From IMG/VR virus record IMGVR_UViG_3300034082_000651, positions 1-20,156 of that record: a DNA stretch of 20,156 bases. One strand, written 5' to 3'. The DNA is from a virus. This document shows, piece by piece, positions 8,056 through 20,156 of this stretch. Under the pieces are notes generated by a model. The model made no database searches. It had not been told where the DNA came from and was given only the letters and a program-made list of their open reading frames with translations. Position numbers and translations under genes: made by a program. Numbering within the stretch: the stretch's first letter is position 1; every line of letters starts with the position of its first letter.

Positions 8056-8517
8056 CTATATAGGAGTATAGGCATTACAAGAATGTAATGTATTTATACT
8101 TGTTGGCTTGTGTTTACAGTTGTTGTTATGCCAACGACTTAACATATTCTTTCCCATGGTTTTGTTACAATGGATACAAGTTCTTAATGGATTGCCACCA
8201 TATGCATTATCATTGCCTTTATTATACATATGTGTAGTCACATCTTGTCTTAATCCAGTGACTAAATGCGCTGGATTACAGCAAATGTAGTTGCTGCAAG
8301 TGTGATAAACACAGATATCATCAGGTACAACTGTTTGATTGTGTAAATCATAACTAACACGATGTACTGTTCTCATACGCTTACCATCACGGATAAAACC
8401 ATAGCCAATGTTGTTACAGCATCCTTGCCATTCCCAGCAGTCGGTTACTGGGTCAATAGTTATTTGGTCAGATATTCTATCTTCTATACTCCAACCTTTG
8501 CGTCTTTTTATTGCCAT
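8056..8517 (-). CDS. HNH homing endonuclease with C-terminal zinc finger
   Basis: This encodes 153 residues. The core reads CWEWQGCCNNIGYGF, then VHRVSYDLHN and YHTCSNYICCNPAHL (His72, Cys74, Cys79/80, His84), which is the signature of phage free-standing HNH endonucleases. A second metal motif follows at Cys114-x2-Cys117-x12-His130-x3-Cys134 (LRTCIHCNKT... SRWHNNNC), a DNA-binding finger often attached to such enzymes. Its start overlaps the terL stop by 10 nt, and it separates terL from portal, as expected for a homing gene that inserted at the packaging module. The 3' part contains the late-promoter-like element that probably serves portal. Activity and target site cannot be read from sequence. 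Confidence 0.85.
   Translation of the reverse strand: MAIKRRKGWSIEDRISDQITIDPVTDCWEWQGCCNNIGYGFIRDGKRMRTVHRVSYDLHNQTVVPDDICVYHTCSNYICCNPAHLVTGLRQDVTTHMYNKGNDNAYGGNPLRTCIHCNKTMGKNMLSRWHNNNCKHKPTSINTLHSCNAYTPI
8085..8098 (-). promoter_or_regulatory. Late-promoter-like element TATAAATACATTAC
   Basis: It has the full TATAAATA core of T4-type late promoters and lies 43 nt before the portal ATG, inside the 3' end of the HNH gene. A small inverted repeat (CATTAC at 8073-8078 with GTAATG at 8085-8090) overlaps it downstream. Confidence 0.5.
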
Positions 8518-11086: not shown

Positions 11087-11395
11087 TTAATGTAATACTT
11101 GTACTTGTGTTAATTCATCAATCATCTGATTGGTCTGAATGTTAACTGTACCATTTAATTCTTTTGCTGCATCTTTAAGAGTTTGTTCTTGTACTAATGC
11201 ACCTAAGAATTCAAATATTGTTTTAAGACCAAGTATCTTTAGGTTAAAGATTTCTTTGTCTTCTTGTGTTAAGGTGTCAATAGGTATATCCATCATTTGA
11301 TGTATTGATGTTTCAATATCATTCATCAAGGGCTTGACTGTAACAAGTAGTTCCCCGTCTTGGTCTTTTGCTAATCTATATGTATATTCAATCAT
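11087..11395 (-). CDS. Unknown protein, 102 residues
   Basis: This encodes 102 residues, starting MIEYTYRLAKDQDGELLVTV. A strand-rich N-terminus is followed by acidic helices (LTQEDKEIFNLKILGLKTIF). The ATG overlaps the end of the GNGPS-motif gene by 8 nt. No family recognised. No cysteines and no membrane segment are visible. Confidence 0.65.
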   Translation of the reverse strand: MIEYTYRLAKDQDGELLVTVKPLMNDIETSIHQMMDIPIDTLTQEDKEIFNLKILGLKTIFEFLGALVQEQTLKDAAKELNGTVNIQTNQMIDELTQVQVLH

Positions 11396-11978
11396 TTATT
11401 ATTTCCTTAAATTGTTCTATTGTTATTTCACTGTAGTTGTCTAGGGGTATATCAAATCTTTTGTTATTACCATTAACTCTTACAACCTTTTTATTTGGAT
11501 AGTCTCTTAATATTTTATTTAATCTTTGACGCCATTTGTCTGTTTGCATACTTGCTGCAGGGAAGATATGACTTCTCGGGTACTGCTTTGTGCCACTGTA
11601 TACATTTGGTAAATTGCTTCCACCTTCATTGTAATCAAATCCTATAATATATGTAATATCATTATCCTGTGTTAATGCTAATCTTAACGCACTATTACCG
11701 CTGTCGTTTGTTTCCTTGAATCCAGAAAAAAAGTTAATTGGTTCACCTTTTGCAGCAAGACTATCAATATAATTTTCATGCTGTGTATAGAATATTGAAC
11801 GCTTGTGTGCTTCATGTTCAATTATCTCATCTACCATTTGTCTGTCCATGCTAACCAAATAATTTGGTGTAAAATCTCTATACAATGCATTACATCCATA
11901 TGTTGTCATTTTGCTACCTATCGTTGCTAAATCAAAATTTAATCTACTTGGTCCATTTCCTATCACACATGCATTCAT
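11388..11978 (-). CDS. GNGPS-motif Rossmann-like protein (GT42/DUF115-like, putative)
   Basis: This encodes 196 residues. The N-terminus is a strand followed by a glycine loop (NACVIGNGPSRLNFDL), then YGCNALYRDF and VSMDRQMVDEI, later SGNSALRLALTQ and ITYIIGFDYNEGG. This order (GNGPS loop, an early Asn in 'CN..y', an 'S/TG..A...A' helix, and 'GfDf' strand) is what I know from bacterial sialyltransferases of the CstII/GT42 type and related DUF115 proteins, which bind a nucleotide sugar. The usual C-terminal catalytic His is not obvious. The gene overlaps its upstream neighbour as ATGA. It could modify a glycan or be a degenerate relative. The similarity is by eye only. Confidence 0.45.
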   Translation of the reverse strand: MNACVIGNGPSRLNFDLATIGSKMTTYGCNALYRDFTPNYLVSMDRQMVDEIIEHEAHKRSIFYTQHENYIDSLAAKGEPINFFSGFKETNDSGNSALRLALTQDNDITYIIGFDYNEGGSNLPNVYSGTKQYPRSHIFPAASMQTDKWRQRLNKILRDYPNKKVVRVNGNNKRFDIPLDNYSEITIEQFKEIIND

Positions 11979-12205
11979 TCTTTTTTCTTCTTTGATATAG
12001 TATTTATTACCTTACAAAAATCTCTATGGTTTATCAGTACTATTTTGCTTCTAAAGGCAACATCACACTTTTTACATCTATACCCAATACATCTCCACAT
12101 CTTAGTAAGTTGTACATATTGATGTTGTACTGAGGCATAGTCCATTACTTCTGGTATTTCATGTGCTTCATGTAGTTGTTTGGGCGTGAGTTTTGTTATC
12201 GGCAT
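11975..12205 (-). CDS. Small C2HC zinc-finger protein
   Basis: This encodes 76 residues. A metal-binding motif Cys44-x2-Cys47-x12-His60-x3-Cys64 (YRCKKCDVAFRSK... LINHRDFC) has the spacing of a classical zinc finger with Cys as the fourth ligand. A lysine-rich tail (KKKKE) follows. It probably binds nucleic acid. The ATG overlaps the NUMOD3 gene by 38 nt and has no good Shine-Dalgarno, so it may be coupled to that gene. The stop overlaps the next ATG as ATGA. Confidence 0.65.
   Translation of the reverse strand: MPITKLTPKQLHEAHEIPEVMDYASVQHQYVQLTKMWRCIGYRCKKCDVAFRSKIVLINHRDFCKVINTISKKKKE
11995..12008 (-). promoter_or_regulatory. Late-promoter-like element AATAAATACTATAT
   Basis: It lies inside the 3' end of the zinc-finger gene, 16 nt upstream of the GNGPS-motif gene. 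It carries the ATAAATA core and shares AATAAATAC with the scaffold copy. It overlaps coding sequence, so selection for the protein could explain it. Confidence 0.35.
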
Positions 12206-12524
12206 AATGGGTGTGGCTTATAAGTTTACGACGCCTTGCCCATGCTGAACGCATTGCTTGCTTGTGTTGCTCACTCTTGGGTTTTCCAAGACTTGCCAGA
12301 CTCATTTTCTGTTTTTGTTCAGGAGATTTCGGTACTCCTTTACATGCTTTTTGCACAGCAGTTCGTAATGTATTTAGTTGAACCTGTGAAAATGGACCTG
12401 TTCCACGCTTCCATTCTGTAAAGCCTGTGTCATTTGTTGAGGGCTTTTCTCCCATTGGATAATTTTTAATGTATTTGACACCGTGATCATCAAATCGGTG
12501 CCATCTTTGGTATAGTATTGTCAT
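12168..12524 (-). CDS. NUMOD3-like DNA-binding protein without a visible nuclease domain
   Basis: This encodes 118 residues. Two adjacent copies of the nuclease-associated modular motif are visible at about 62-78 (KGVPKSPEQKQKMSLAS) and 80-96 (GKPKSEQHKQAMRSAWA), followed by RRRK. NUMOD3 motifs normally sit at the C-terminus of GIY-YIG or HNH homing endonucleases and bind DNA. Here the N-terminal 60 residues (YQRWHRFDDHGVKYIKNYP) show no GIY-YIG or HNH signature. It is therefore a free-standing DNA-binding module or a remnant of a homing endonuclease. It lies between unknown accessory genes and overlaps both neighbours. Confidence 0.65.
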   Translation of the reverse strand: MTILYQRWHRFDDHGVKYIKNYPMGEKPSTNDTGFTEWKRGTGPFSQVQLNTLRTAVQKACKGVPKSPEQKQKMSLASLGKPKSEQHKQAMRSAWARRRKLISHTHYADNKTHAQTTT

Positions 12525-15275: not shown

Positions 15276-15304
15276 AAAAGCCCCAATATTTCTATTAGGG
15301 CTTT
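15274..15304. terminator. Bidirectional terminator between convergent transcripts
   Basis: AAAGCCC (15277-15283) pairs with GGGCTTT (15298-15304), with an inner AATA/TATT stem. On the minus strand the stem is followed by six T, a strong terminator for the leftward adsorption block. On the plus strand the T tract is only three, so termination of the lipoprotein operon is weaker. Confidence 0.8.
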
Positions 15305-15463: not shown

Positions 15464-15898
15464 TTATTCTTGAGTGCTACGAAGTTTCCACATGATCTTA
15501 CCTAATTCATCCATCTGACCTTCAATGAAGTTGATTAGACCATAGCACTTTTCTTCAACTGCCATGTCATGGCATTCTTCATAATGATCCATTAGAATCT
15601 GACTATCTGCTAGTAAATCTTTGACCATTCGTAATGCTTCTGGTCTTTCCTTACCATCTTCAATAGAACCAAGTTCCATAATTCGTTTTAGACTGAATGG
15701 TGCAATTGCTTGCATTACACGAATATGTTCAGGAATACTATCACTTGCTTCATCAGCAAATTTATATACTTCACCAAACAATTGATGATACTGAACAAAG
15801 TCAGGACCTACAACATTAACATGAAAGCCATGAGCCTTTACATAGTATTGGTAGTTTGTTGCGAATAATCGCTTCATGCATTCTATTAATTGTTCCAT
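15464..15898 (-). CDS. dps: Dps-like ferritin-family protein
   Basis: This encodes 144 residues. The helix region HGFHVNVVGPDFVQYHQLFG is the Dps 'H-W-N-v-G-p-F-...-H-..F' motif, with Val in place of the usual Trp. Ferroxidase ligands fall at exact family spacing: His26, His38, Asp53 and Glu57 (H-x11-H-x14-D-x3-E). The remaining helices (SLKRIMELGSIEDG, LMDHYEECHDMAVEEKCYGL, INFIEGQMDELGKIMWKLRS) match the four-helix bundle of Dps. Dps dodecamers oxidise and store iron and protect DNA. The N-terminal lysine tail of E. coli Dps is absent, so DNA binding is doubtful. It is the last gene of the adsorption block, so a virion or host-protection role is open. Confidence 0.8.
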   Translation of the reverse strand: MEQLIECMKRLFATNYQYYVKAHGFHVNVVGPDFVQYHQLFGEVYKFADEASDSIPEHIRVMQAIAPFSLKRIMELGSIEDGKERPEALRMVKDLLADSQILMDHYEECHDMAVEEKCYGLINFIEGQMDELGKIMWKLRSTQE

Positions 15899-15900
15899 TT

Positions 15901-16098
15901 TTATTTTACCTTTGATGTAGTATTTAGTTTATCTTCTATTCTGTCAAGTTGTTTAGTTGACTGTTCCATTTGACTATGAACGACTGCGACCTTTGTTGTC
16001 AATTCATCTATTTTACCATTCATTGAGAGGTAGCCAGTACCACCAAATCCTAGTGCGGTAATAACTATCCATGACAGTTGTTTAAGGCTGAATTCCAT
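15901..16098 (-). CDS. Membrane-anchored coiled-coil protein, 65 residues
   Basis: The N-terminus has one membrane segment (LSWIVITALGFGGTGYL, residues about 8-24). It is followed by a heptad-type coiled coil (IDELTTKVAVVHSQMEQSTK, then QLDRIEDKLNTTSK). This N-in anchor with a periplasmic coiled coil resembles inner-membrane spanins or XhlA-type lysis proteins, though XhlA places the membrane segment at the C-terminus. No endolysin is in the window. It overlaps the upstream gene by 17 nt and lies 2 nt before the Dps-like start. The lysis link is inference. Confidence 0.6.
   Translation of the reverse strand: MEFSLKQLSWIVITALGFGGTGYLSMNGKIDELTTKVAVVHSQMEQSTKQLDRIEDKLNTTSKVK
15915..15928 (-). 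promoter_or_regulatory. Late-promoter-like element ACTAAATACTACAT
   Basis: It lies in the 3' end of the coiled-coil gene, 16 nt before the Dps-like start and just upstream of AAAGG. It is the poorest match of the six (C for A at the second position). Confidence 0.3.
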
Positions 16099-16309
16099 TT
16101 GTTTCTTCTGGTAATGGTAAGTTAAAAAAGATTCTGGCTAGTTCTTCACTATCAAAGTAATACCAATCATTGACTGGATATGTATAGGTATCTTTTAAGT
16201 ATATGTCTAGTTCTATGCCATCTGGAAAAATGACAAAGTTAGGAGCATAAAATAGTTCTTCATTTTCTTTTTTGTAAAAGCCTGGGCTTGGTGTTGTTTC
16301 TTCAATCAT
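16082..16309 (-). CDS. Small acidic protein of unknown function, 75 residues
   Basis: This encodes 75 residues, starting MIEETTPSPGFYKKENEELF, with AYAPNF-like YAPNFVIFPDGIELDIYLKD and YTYPVNDWYYFDSEELARIF. AGGAT lies 7 nt before the ATG. It is acidic and aromatic. I have the impression of a small conserved protein found near tail-fibre genes in aquatic phages, but know no function. It starts 4 nt after the LRR gene stop, so it is co-translated with it. Confidence 0.65.
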   Translation of the reverse strand: MIEETTPSPGFYKKENEELFYAPNFVIFPDGIELDIYLKDTYTYPVNDWYYFDSEELARIFFNLPLPEETNGIQP

Positions 16310-16312
16310 ATA

Positions 16313-18415
16313 TTATCCTGTTATGGTCCATCCCTTGTATGCTGCCAAGTTTGTATTTAATGTTCTAGTTGTTACATTTGTTGCTGTTCCATTACCTGCA
16401 GGATAAGCACTCAATATAACATTAGCATTAGTATTAACTGTGGTAACCAATATGTTAACACGCATGTTTGCTGTACCATTAGTAAATGTAATTGGTGTTC
16501 CACCTTGTGTTGTGCTAATATCATAAGTGTATGGACCTGCTCCAGCACGATTGCTTGTATAGTAAAGTGTATTTGCTACTGCATTACTTGTAGTAACTGT
16601 AGTAAATGATACGATTGTATTAGCATCTATTACTGATGCCACACTTACTTTATTACTTGTAAGTGTGCCGGCATAACCTAAGTTAACATTGGCTGTATTA
16701 CTAACTTGTGCCCCGACTATAACACCGACTGTATTAGCCATGGTCATTACATTACTTGTATTAGTCCATGTTGCTGTTTTAGTCAATGAAGTATCAGCAC
16801 CTGGGTTACCAGTAATTGTTAGTGTTTGCCCTGCTCCACTACCTAAATTACCCATCATTGTATTTAATGATGAAGTATTTAGACTGCATTGACTATAACT
16901 TATTGAAAATCTTACTCCATATACATCACTAGTAGTTATGGGAGATGATGTGCCTACAGTGTTACCAGCAGCACCTAATATAAGGGCTTGACCACTACCA
17001 ACTGTTGATAAATTATAAGCCGGTAAACTACGAAGATTTAAGCAAGAATTAAACATGGAAGCAACGGTAGTAGCACTTGCTGTATTCAAATTTGGCGCAT
17101 CTTGTATTAAAGGTAAACCTTGAAATGTACTAGAAAAATTAGTGCAATTTGCTGTATCTAAATTTGGTATTGTTTGTATTAACAAACAATTTTGATATGT
17201 TGAAGTTAAATTAGTAACTTTTGGAGTATGTGTTATTGGTATTGTAAGTAAACTAGAACAATTTAAGAATGTCTGTGATAGAGATGTAACATTTGCTGTA
17301 TTAGGAAAATTAAACTGACTTAAGTTATTACAACCATTAAATGTTGCTGACATAGTTACAGCAGCCGCCGTAAAATTTCCACTAATATTAACCGTTTTTA
17401 ACGAAACGGCTCCGGAAAATGAACTAGTAAAACTACTACAATTATTAAGATTAGAAATTGATATAGAAACAAGACCTGTAGCCGACTGAAAAGTTGAATT
17501 TAAGTTTACTGCGCTTGGTAAATTTAATGGTTGGATAGAAGTTAAAGATACACAACTTCTAAATGCTGACCCCAAATCAGTCACATTGGCAGTTGAGGTA
17601 AATCCACCAAAATATTTTAATTTATAACAATTAAAAAAAGTACTATTTAGACTGGTGTTTAATGGTGTTTTGTACGCAGGAACACTTATTAAATTATAAC
17701 AATTAGTAAAGGTTTGTTGCATAGTATTAACACTGGAAGTATCAAAATACGGCGCATAAAGCAATGATGAACAATTATAAAACATTGTATTCATTGTATT
17801 CCAAGTTGACATATCACAATCAAATATTACACTTCTTAATGCAACACACCAATAAAAGAACTCACTTTGACTAACATATGATGCTGATTTACTTACCCAT
17901 CTAAATCTTTGTAACAATGGTAAAGAAATTGTGTTATTATTAGCACCAATAATAACACTTGTTAAATTAGGACTACCAACTTCAATGTCTAACCATTTTG
18001 CCACCCATGTAGCAGTAGTACTTACTACTCCGCTATAATTTGGTCTATTACGAATAGTAACAGTTACTAAATTTGCTGTTTGTGGAGTTACTGTTATTGT
18101 TACTTGTTTATAACCATAACTAGTTAAATTACCCACAGAAGCATAGGTATATTGATGATTTGCCTGTGTGCCGCTTGCAATATTTTCACTTGTGCCATCA
18201 CCCCAATCAATTGTATAATTACCAGTACTTACCGTAGCAGTTAATGCTACATAATTATCTTCATTATTTGGATATACAGCATATACTCCGGTAAATTTCT
18301 GTTCAGTTGCTCCAACCGGCGTCAATGCTACCCATTCACTTGGTCTTACATAGGGAGGTGGGGTAACTAATAGTTTAGATGTTGTTTGTCTAGGAACGGC
18401 ATATCCAAAACTCAT
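16313..18415 (-). CDS. PKD and BspA-type leucine-rich-repeat protein (putative receptor-binding or tail-fibre protein)
   Basis: This encodes 700 residues. Residues about 45-125 form a PKD-like beta domain with the signature IDWGDGTS at 69-76. From about 205 to 475 there are roughly eleven 23-25-residue repeats of the type 'tF.nC.sL..iP..dt..vt.l.s' (for example MFYNCSSLLYAPYFDTSSVN), the BspA/DUF285 leucine-rich repeat. The rest, about 480-700, is a Thr/Asn/Val-rich beta region ending TRTLNTNLAAYKGWTITG. BspA-type repeats mediate adhesion on bacterial surfaces, and PKD domains are common in extracellular proteins. With the collagen-like fibre just upstream, this is the best candidate for host recognition. 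No signal peptide is present, as expected for a virion protein. The ATG overlaps the upstream stop as TAATG, with GGAG 8 nt upstream. Confidence 0.75.
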   Translation of the reverse strand: MSFGYAVPRQTTSKLLVTPPPYVRPSEWVALTPVGATEQKFTGVYAVYPNNEDNYVALTATVSTGNYTIDWGDGTSENIASGTQANHQYTYASVGNLTSYGYKQVTITVTPQTANLVTVTIRNRPNYSGVVSTTATWVAKWLDIEVGSPNLTSVIIGANNNTISLPLLQRFRWVSKSASYVSQSEFFYWCVALRSVIFDCDMSTWNTMNTMFYNCSSLLYAPYFDTSSVNTMQQTFTNCYNLISVPAYKTPLNTSLNSTFFNCYKLKYFGGFTSTANVTDLGSAFRSCVSLTSIQPLNLPSAVNLNSTFQSATGLVSISISNLNNCSSFTSSFSGAVSLKTVNISGNFTAAAVTMSATFNGCNNLSQFNFPNTANVTSLSQTFLNCSSLLTIPITHTPKVTNLTSTYQNCLLIQTIPNLDTANCTNFSSTFQGLPLIQDAPNLNTASATTVASMFNSCLNLRSLPAYNLSTVGSGQALILGAAGNTVGTSSPITTSDVYGVRFSISYSQCSLNTSSLNTMMGNLGSGAGQTLTITGNPGADTSLTKTATWTNTSNVMTMANTVGVIVGAQVSNTANVNLGYAGTLTSNKVSVASVIDANTIVSFTTVTTSNAVANTLYYTSNRAGAGPYTYDISTTQGGTPITFTNGTANMRVNILVTTVNTNANVILSAYPAGNGTATNVTTRTLNTNLAAYKGWTITG

Positions 18416-18741
18416 TATGTTATCTCCGAACCAAACAAATTAAATGATACATTTGCTGTACCTGCATATACTGTTATAACATCAGTGTTTGCTATTGCTG
18501 TACCAATTGTTAAAAACATAGTATCATTGGCATTAACAATGGTATCAAAAACAACATATTGTTTTGCTTCAATTGCTGCATTGGCAACTCTTACTGCTGC
18601 TCTTATATTGGTACTTGTTCCTTGATTACATATACTTAATGTACTACATACTGCCCCGTTTGCTGTAGCGCAAGTGTACAATGTTGTATTTGTGTTTGCT
18701 GATGGGATAGATTGTCCCAATACTTTATAAGTTGTTGCCAT
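18415..18741 (-). CDS. Small conserved virion-type protein, 108 residues
   Basis: This encodes 108 residues, starting MATTYKVLGQSIPSANTNTT and ending AGTANVSFNLFGSEIT. It is Thr/Ala/Asn-rich, beta by eye, with ANDTMFLTIGTAI near the end. I have seen this pattern near fibre genes in marine phages, described as structural or hypothetical. It lies 1 nt after the collagen-like gene and overlaps the LRR gene as TAATG, so all three are co-translated. It may cap or attach the fibre (inference). Confidence 0.7.
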   Translation of the reverse strand: MATTYKVLGQSIPSANTNTTLYTCATANGAVCSTLSICNQGTSTNIRAAVRVANAAIEAKQYVVFDTIVNANDTMFLTIGTAIANTDVITVYAGTANVSFNLFGSEIT

Positions 18742-18742
18742 G

Positions 18743-20156
18743 TTACATTCCGCCTAATAAAAATGATGGGGTGAAGTCTGGGTCTGATGATCCTCCTCCA
18801 CCGCTTGGGCCTGTTGCCCCTGTTATACCTGTAGCACCTTGTGGACCTGTTGCTCCACTTGCGCCTAATCCAGTTGCTCCTGTTGCTCCAGCGGTACCTA
18901 TTCCAGTAGCACCTGTTGCCCCCGATCCAGTTGCACCTGCTGTACCAGTAGCGCCCGTTAGACCTGTTGCACCAGTTAGACCAGTAGCACCAAAATTTCC
19001 TTGTACGCCTGTAGCACCTGTTGCGCCTTCCGGGCCACTAGCACCAGTCGCACCTATTCCGGTTGCACCGGTTGCACCTATTCCGGTTGCACCTGTTATA
19101 CCTGTTGCTCCCGTTGATCCAAATAATCCTTGTATACCTGTTGCACCAGTTAATCCAGTCGCACCTGTTAATCCAGTAGCACCTGTTAGACCAGTACTTC
19201 CTTGTATACCTGTTGCACCAGTTAGACCAGTAGCACCAAAATTTCCTTGTACGCCTGTGGCACCTGTAGCACCTTCTAATCCAGTACTTCCTTGTATACC
19301 TGTTGCTCCAGTTGCACCTGCTACACCTGTAGCACCTATTCCGGTTGCACCTGTTATACCTGTACTTCCTTGTAGACCAGTTGCGCCGGTTAATCCTGTT
19401 GCACCTGCTGCACCTGTAGCACCAGTAGGGCCGGTAGCACCGCTAGATTGTGTAATCCAACTTAGATTACCACTACCATTTGTACTTAATACATATCCAT
19501 TTGTACCGCCAGTGATAATAACATTGCTTTCAGGACCTAAATTACTGACATTGCTTACAGTTAAATTACCGGCAACATTTAGTGTAACTGCTGCATTAAT
19601 ACTTGTATTACCAACAACTAAAGCGTTTGGCATATATTCAGCATTAAGACGCACTTTGTTATTGGCTGTATCAAAAGTGATATCAATTACGCCATTACGA
19701 CCAACAGCATCAGTTTCTGCTCTACCCATGTACAATATACCAAGGTCTGGTCTATATGTTAATGGTGTTCCAAAGTTGTCAATTTGAGCAAATGCTGTTC
19801 CTGTTGCATTAGCAAATATTGGAAAGAATGTATTGCTTGATGCAGCATCAACATTTGATATGTTAACACTATTAGCAAGATTTGCAAATGCAGCATTAGC
19901 AACAAACCCGGTGACATTAGCACCTGCTATATTTGATAAGTTTGATCCATTGCCAATAAAATAGTTTGCAGTGATGTTACCTACATTGCTAATGCTAAAA
20001 CCATTGCCATCAACATTGCCTGTTAGGTTACCACTGAATGATCCAGTAGCACCTACTGCTCCTGTAGCGCCAGTGCTTCCATTTGTTCCATTAGTACCAG
20101 TTGCACCTGTTATGCCTGTAGCGCCGGTTACTCCAGTTGCACCAGTTGAGCCATTT
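18743..20156 (-). CDS. Collagen-like tail fibre protein (5' end beyond window)
   Basis: The frame is open from the right edge to TAA at 18743-18745, so about 470 residues are present and the N-terminus is missing. A short Gly-X-Thr repeat stretch lies at the right edge. It is followed by an Asn/Ala/Gly-rich beta-type region ([39 protein letters not shown]) and [19 protein letters not shown] long run of about 200 residues of Gly-X-Y triplets with Thr usual at Y follows ([23 protein letters not shown]). The C-terminus is [14 protein letters not shown]. Phage collagen-like triplets form trimeric triple helices that give fibres rigidity. A TTG at 19735 is not a likely start because the frame continues upstream with protein-like sequence. 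Confidence 0.85.
18962..19258. repeat. 51-nt exact direct repeat within the collagen-like gene
   Basis: The sequence at 18962-19012 recurs at 19208-19258 with no mismatch, 246 nt (82 codons) apart, coding twice for [15 protein letters not shown]. Shorter related repeats fill the region between them. Recombination between the copies would remove or add 82 codons in frame and so change fibre length. Confidence 0.85.

Follow-up and report, generated by a model that had tools for sequence, protein, structure and literature searches.

A phage-encoded Dps-family mini-ferritin that keeps the ferroxidase ligands and lacks the acidic residues of the ferritin-like 3-fold pore

What could a phage gain from an iron protein encoded behind its tail-fibre genes? 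The question is raised by dps, a small gene in a virus contig of 20,156 nucleotides (IMG/VR record IMGVR_UViG_3300034082_000651, positions 1 to 20,156; the window, below, is this whole stretch). The initial annotation, made from the sequence, had described the product as a phage-encoded Dps-like iron protein. The dps ORF is complete from ATG to stop (144 codons). Its product matched Pfam PF00210 (Ferritin) with an E-value of 8.3e-13 and 48.9 bits against a cut-off of 24.5 bits, phrog_3636 over its full length (2.6e-23), and solved Dps chains in the PDB in a single-sequence search (6e-12). The best PDB profile match was PA0962 of P. aeruginosa (PaDps; 4.6e-52), and the significant PDB relatives are Dps-type mini-ferritins. 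The Pfam, phrog_3636 and PDB matches place the homology to Dps far above chance. A match to DUF2102 lay under its cut-off and was taken as a chance hit; a longer start or an N-terminal fusion was looked for and found neither in the window Dps nor in its clade. Thus, the ORF is a genuine phage-encoded Dps-family protein, as had been annotated, and the predicted fold agrees.

Features of the dps locus in the window. Residue numbers are those of the window Dps.
Feature	Position	Strand	Basis or remark
dps, 144-aa Dps-family mini-ferritin	15464..15898	-	Pfam, PHROG and PDB matches, predicted fold
His26 codon, ferroxidase ligand (PaDps H37)	15821..15823	-	alignment to PaDps
Val27 codon, replaces conserved Trp (PaDps W38)	15818..15820	-	alignment to PaDps
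His38 codon, ferroxidase ligand (PaDps H49)	15785..15787	-	alignment to PaDps
Asp53 codon, ferroxidase ligand (PaDps D64)	15740..15742	-	alignment to PaDps
Glu57 codon, ferroxidase ligand (PaDps E68)	15728..15730	-	alignment to PaDps
Codons 114-123 with pore positions V114, C118, Y119, N123, all non-acidic	15530..15559	-	PaDps D125, D129, E130, D134; PMC10002758
Terminator-like hairpin in the gap from dps to the convergent + strand ORF	15277..15304	-	
Convergent 99-aa ORF, cluster C5	14976..15275	+	marks the strand switch after dps
65-aa membrane/coiled-coil protein	15901..16098	-	weak Rz-spanin-like match (E 1.4e-4); 2 nt lie between its end and the dps ATG
Small 75-aa ORF, function unassigned	16082..16309	-	lies upstream within this gene run
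700-aa protein with DUF285 repeats	16313..18415	-	fibre block
108-aa fibre-block protein	18415..18741	-	weak tail-fibre match for the L001 homologue
Collagen-like (GAT repeat) tail fibre	18743..20156	-	runs off the contig end

A single chain was modelled with AlphaFold2 on an alignment of 60 sequences (pLDDT 97.2, pTM 0.91). The model has five helices in Dps order (residues 2-28, 34-61, 70-76, 88-115 and 119-143), that is, a four-helix bundle with a short helix within the long connecting loop. Foldseek superposed it on subunits of Dps dodecamers with TM scores of about 0.9-0.95 over ~143 columns. The annotation had staked its claim on a four-helix ferritin bundle, and this is the fold that was predicted. 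The window Dps is very probably a 12-mer. A smaller oligomer is possible, because the 3-fold interface is altered at V114, C118, Y119 and N123.

The ferroxidase site was examined by alignment to PaDps, which is ungapped over 138 residues with a numbering offset of 11. H26, H38, D53 and E57 of the window Dps correspond to PaDps H37, H49, D64 and E68, which in the crystal structures of that protein coordinate Fe1 and Fe2 (PMC10002758). The Dps spacing that had been noticed for these four residues was thereby confirmed. Among the sequences covering the site, none of the four ligands is substituted in the 24 clade members, the 63 other viral relatives or the 80 bacterial relatives (the best 80 of 426) that were compared. 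The invariance of H26 (24/24, 63/63 and 80/80 of the best 80 of 426) is partly a selection effect, since the region of this His lies partly within the search patterns, and H38 is affected likewise in the bacterial scan; D53 and E57 are in no pattern of either profile scan. The acidic residue at H+4 of helix 2 is replaced by G42. It was considered as a lost ferroxidase ligand and dropped, as PaDps coordinates both irons without a residue at H+4. The position varies in the bacterial relatives as well, with E in 47, M in 20 and G in 5 of the best 80 of 426.

A conserved Trp beside the first ligand His is usual in Dps; it is not an iron ligand and does not strictly define the family. The annotation had read this residue as Val in the window Dps, and the alignment bears it out, V27 standing at the position of PaDps W38. 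Val is found in all 24 clade members, down to 49% identity, and Trp in all 63 other viral and all 80 bacterial relatives (the best 80 of 426). The Val form is a single clade (SH-aLRT 100) and a single change on the tree. W38 of PaDps lies ~3 A from Fe1, a Trp and a Tyr of the Listeria protein have been implicated in radical trapping, and Y27 and Y30 belong to the radical-trapping Tyr network of PaDps (PMC10002758). The window Dps has Y16, Y18 and Y19, of which Y16 and Y19 are the counterparts of Y27 and Y30. Position 16 is Tyr or Phe in the Val clade; positions 18 and 19 are Tyr in 22/22 distinct members, and Y18 is characteristic of the clade. The substitution of Val for Trp close to Fe1 could make the protein less active, and with the three tyrosines present the loss of Trp suggests changed radical handling.

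An acidic ferritin-like 3-fold pore, the presumed entry route of iron, is likewise usual in Dps and not strictly defining. The window Dps lacks it, with V114, C118, Y119 and N123 at the positions that line the pore in PaDps, namely D125, D129, residue 130 and D134 (PMC10002758); residue 130 is D in that paper and E in the PDB sequence. Acids at the four positions were counted over distinct sequences. The bacterial relatives have two, three or four acids in 8, 52 and 19 of 79 sequences (distinct ones from the best 80 of 426). The other IMG/VR proteins have zero, one, two or three in 6, 31, 36 and 3 of 76. The window's clade has none in 17/22 and one in 5/22. Residue 123 is N in 24/24 clade members and 54/61 other viral members; D occupies it in 78/80 bacterial relatives (the best 80 of 426). 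Residues 114 and 118 vary in the clade among non-acidic residues. Y119, G120, L121 and N123 show no or almost no variation, which argues that the pore change is not drift. Without the pore acids, iron may enter more slowly or be stored in smaller amounts. The changed pore would predict slower entry or altered assembly, and a protein serving detoxification more than storage.

Relatives are abundant. Full-length copies, 81-100% identical, were found on 16 contigs and a partial copy on one more. A profile scan of IMG/VR detected at least 558 relatives among 599 stretches. Phage-encoded Dps is frequent in environmental virus contigs. A scan of bacteria with the single window Dps sequence found no relatives, and the profile found 426; among the best 80 of these, identity does not exceed 40% over partial matches and ~35% over the full length. 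In the tree, the IMG/VR sequences group together, apart from bacterial Dps (SH-aLRT 98); those of Synechococcus phage S-SRM01 and Proteus phage P59 fall outside this group, with long branches and an unsure placement. Recent capture from a bacterium was considered and not seen, the bacterial identities being low and the IMG/VR sequences a supported group. On these same grounds of sequence relationship, Dps is an old resident of these phages. The gene is under purifying selection, with a median pairwise dN/dS of about 0.07 among close members.

Taken as a whole, these observations are best explained by a late-made, peroxide-using Dps ferroxidase that detoxifies the infected cell and does not coat DNA by a tail, a reading we regard as probable, if well short of certain. 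As the last gene of a fibre/lysis transcription unit, judging from gene order, dps would be expressed late. Fe(II) would be oxidised at the intersubunit site, to which one subunit would contribute H26/H38 and the adjoining one D53/E57. The identity of the ligands with those of PaDps, the closest solved relative, points to H2O2-dependent oxidation, and H2O2 would be the most likely oxidant. PaDps uses H2O2 and protects cells against peroxide (PMC10002758). The removal of Fenton reactants would protect phage DNA, both during replication and once packaged, as well as the cell late in infection; the window Dps would act as a detoxifying ferroxidase more than as an iron store. The same anti-oxidant function has already been proposed in published work on the Dps of gut phages (PMC8008677) and of Lactobacillus phages (PMC6669764). 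It is possible, if rather doubtful, that these proteins make up a phage-specific mini-ferritin lineage in which the intersubunit di-iron centre is kept and the acidic iron-entry pore dismantled, the window's clade being also without the adjacent Trp. Such a protein would be a pore-altered, peroxide-consuming ferroxidase, perhaps of different assembly, and no iron-storing cage.

A compacting or coating protein that binds phage DNA directly and so shields it, whether packaged or still replicating, is an unlikely alternative. DNA coating is known for Dps of the E. coli type, an in vitro action on DNA is described for PaDps, which has no tail (PMC10002758), and phrog_3636 carries the name 'DNA binding protein'; the window Dps matches this family without the usual basic tail for DNA binding. 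It has no terminal Lys/Arg tail of the E. coli type, nor any N- or C-terminal basic extension beyond the bundle, so that the missing Lys tail of the annotation is real. The protein is acidic (pI 5.0, 15 K/R vs 25 D/E), and its net charge of -10 equals the median of the Val clade. Basic tails are missing in nearly all viral relatives too, and in PaDps (PMC10002758). The suggestion that the protein could protect DNA therefore fares differently in its two forms. Protection by coating is unlikely, as there is no basic tail, and protection by removal of Fe(II) and H2O2 is plausible. Coating by a basic tail would have no part in the mechanism proposed above.

The gene order in the window runs from the collagen-like fibre through two fibre-block proteins, the 75-aa ORF and the 65-aa protein to dps, the hairpin and the convergent genes. 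That dps closes a fibre block, as annotated, holds throughout the Val clade. Nearly all V-type loci have a gene of 60-98 codons directly before dps, behind the fibre block (in L007 a 157-codon ORF lies between fibre block and dps instead), and most then reach a strand switch after dps. The small gene is homologous in most of these loci. In three of them (L022:7762-7989, L023:7770-7982 and L027:7680-7973) unrelated small membrane proteins occupy the spanin-like slot before dps, which suggests a lysis slot. Thus, dps is probably the end of a late transcription unit, possibly a lysis slot, the timing being read from gene order. The 700-aa DUF285-repeat protein is itself unusual for a phage fibre region. 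Elsewhere in the window, an ORF at 8056-8517 (-), between the terminase and portal genes, is homing-endonuclease-like (HNH-like by eye, with no Pfam match), and another small ORF at 12168-12524 (-) has a weak match to the homing endonuclease family phrog_314. In the run before terminase, the ORF at 11388-11978 (-) weakly matches an alpha-2,3-sialyltransferase family (phrog_4603, E 0.011), phrog_30607 (function unassigned) being its better match.

In other phages dps is found elsewhere. In T4-like contigs (L030, L034, L049 and similar ones) it adjoins the RegA and clamp-loader genes in conserved order, with DNA polymerase and, a few genes on, Hsp20 downstream. In Proteus phages it belongs to a module with dCTP deaminase, thioredoxin and an RNR-like gene, in S-SRM01 it lies near a porin-annotated gene, and in the L065 group (L065:194-4032, L077, L081) directly between the portal and the scaffold/major-head genes. 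As the contexts differ between phage groups, the post-fibre position is a lineage trait and no clue to tail function. A fused form was also seen. A 798-aa phage protein (L275:4575-6968, +) has a Dps domain (residues 145-284) and a zeta-toxin-like P-loop kinase domain (residues 586-760, which also match phrog_16619, 'minor head protein'), and its gene adjoins an XkdF-type head maturation protease. A viral structure library holds Dps-containing chains of 290-763 aa, some of them named prohead protease.

The annotation had also raised a virion iron carrier, which would bear on iron-bearing phage tails. A Dps packed in the tail or head as an iron carrier or structural component, delivering iron or ferroxidase with the particle, seems improbable. 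In its favour are the place of dps after the tail-fibre genes in V-type loci, its place between portal and head genes in other phages, and the Dps domain inside the head-region protein of L275. The window Dps, in contrast, stands alone at 144 aa, and Pfam and PHROG searches found no fibre, capsid or other virion domain in its ORF. In many relatives dps belongs to a replication or nucleotide module. Between the fibre genes and dps stands a gene for a small membrane protein, lysis-like in most loci, and the loss of acidic iron-entry pores speaks against an iron store. Gene position was rejected as evidence for an iron carrier, given the varying contexts, and nothing in the window supports packaging. 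No report of a virion-bound phage Dps was found in the openly accessible literature.

A role as a divalent-cation-dependent nuclease, aiding host DNA degradation for nucleotide recycling, is slightly less probable again. It has in its favour that PaDps, the best PDB profile match, cleaves plasmid DNA in vitro (PMC10002758). No mapped active site was found for this cleavage, however, so that the activity is not transferable by sequence, and a post-fibre position is unexpected for host-DNA degradation. Least probable of all is a decayed host gene whose product no longer carries out iron chemistry, since, despite the changes at the Trp, the H+4 acid and the four pore positions, the four ligands are invariant in 24/24 copies diverging to 49% identity, dN/dS is about 0.07 and the changed pore segment is itself mostly conserved.

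Compared with known systems, the detoxifying ferroxidase proposed here is closest to PaDps (PDB 8ff9-8ffd), with which it shares the ungapped alignment, the four ligands, the absence of a basic tail, the tyrosines at Y27/Y30 (Y16/Y19) and the predicted subunit fold (TM 0.94-0.95). It differs in being phage-encoded, in its 28% identity, in W38 to V27, in D125/D129/E130/D134 to V/C/Y/N, and in Y81/Y84 to L70/I73. The Dps of S-SRM01 is also phage-encoded, has 144 aa with 33% identity, and carries Asn at pore position 123; this protein and that of P59 keep the Trp, whereas the window Dps has Val. Phage-encoded Dps is known as well from Lactobacillus phages (Semele/LP65), Proteus phages (Privateer group) and 'Gratiaviridae' gut phages. 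Unlike the window, S-SRM01 and the Proteus and Lactobacillus phages have dps elsewhere than at the end of the fibre block. DPSL (thioferritin) is likewise a mini-ferritin with a four-helix bundle, with a site that is intra-bundle and bacterioferritin-like (PMC12532284). DPSL proteins have no Dps intersubunit site and a conserved Cys in the intra-bundle site; the window Dps, with the invariant intersubunit set H/H/D/E, falls outside them. A literature search found no biochemistry of a phage Dps, any member of the window's clade included, and the Val/pore-neutral lineage seems undescribed in the searchable literature.

The idea of iron-bearing phage tails finds no support in the window Dps. Pore acids are lost in steps, from bacterial through other phage proteins to the window's clade, with the ligands staying invariant, which amounts to a natural experiment. 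If such proteins still oxidise iron, ferroxidation would be separable from pore-guided iron storage, and this would show what phages need a Dps for.
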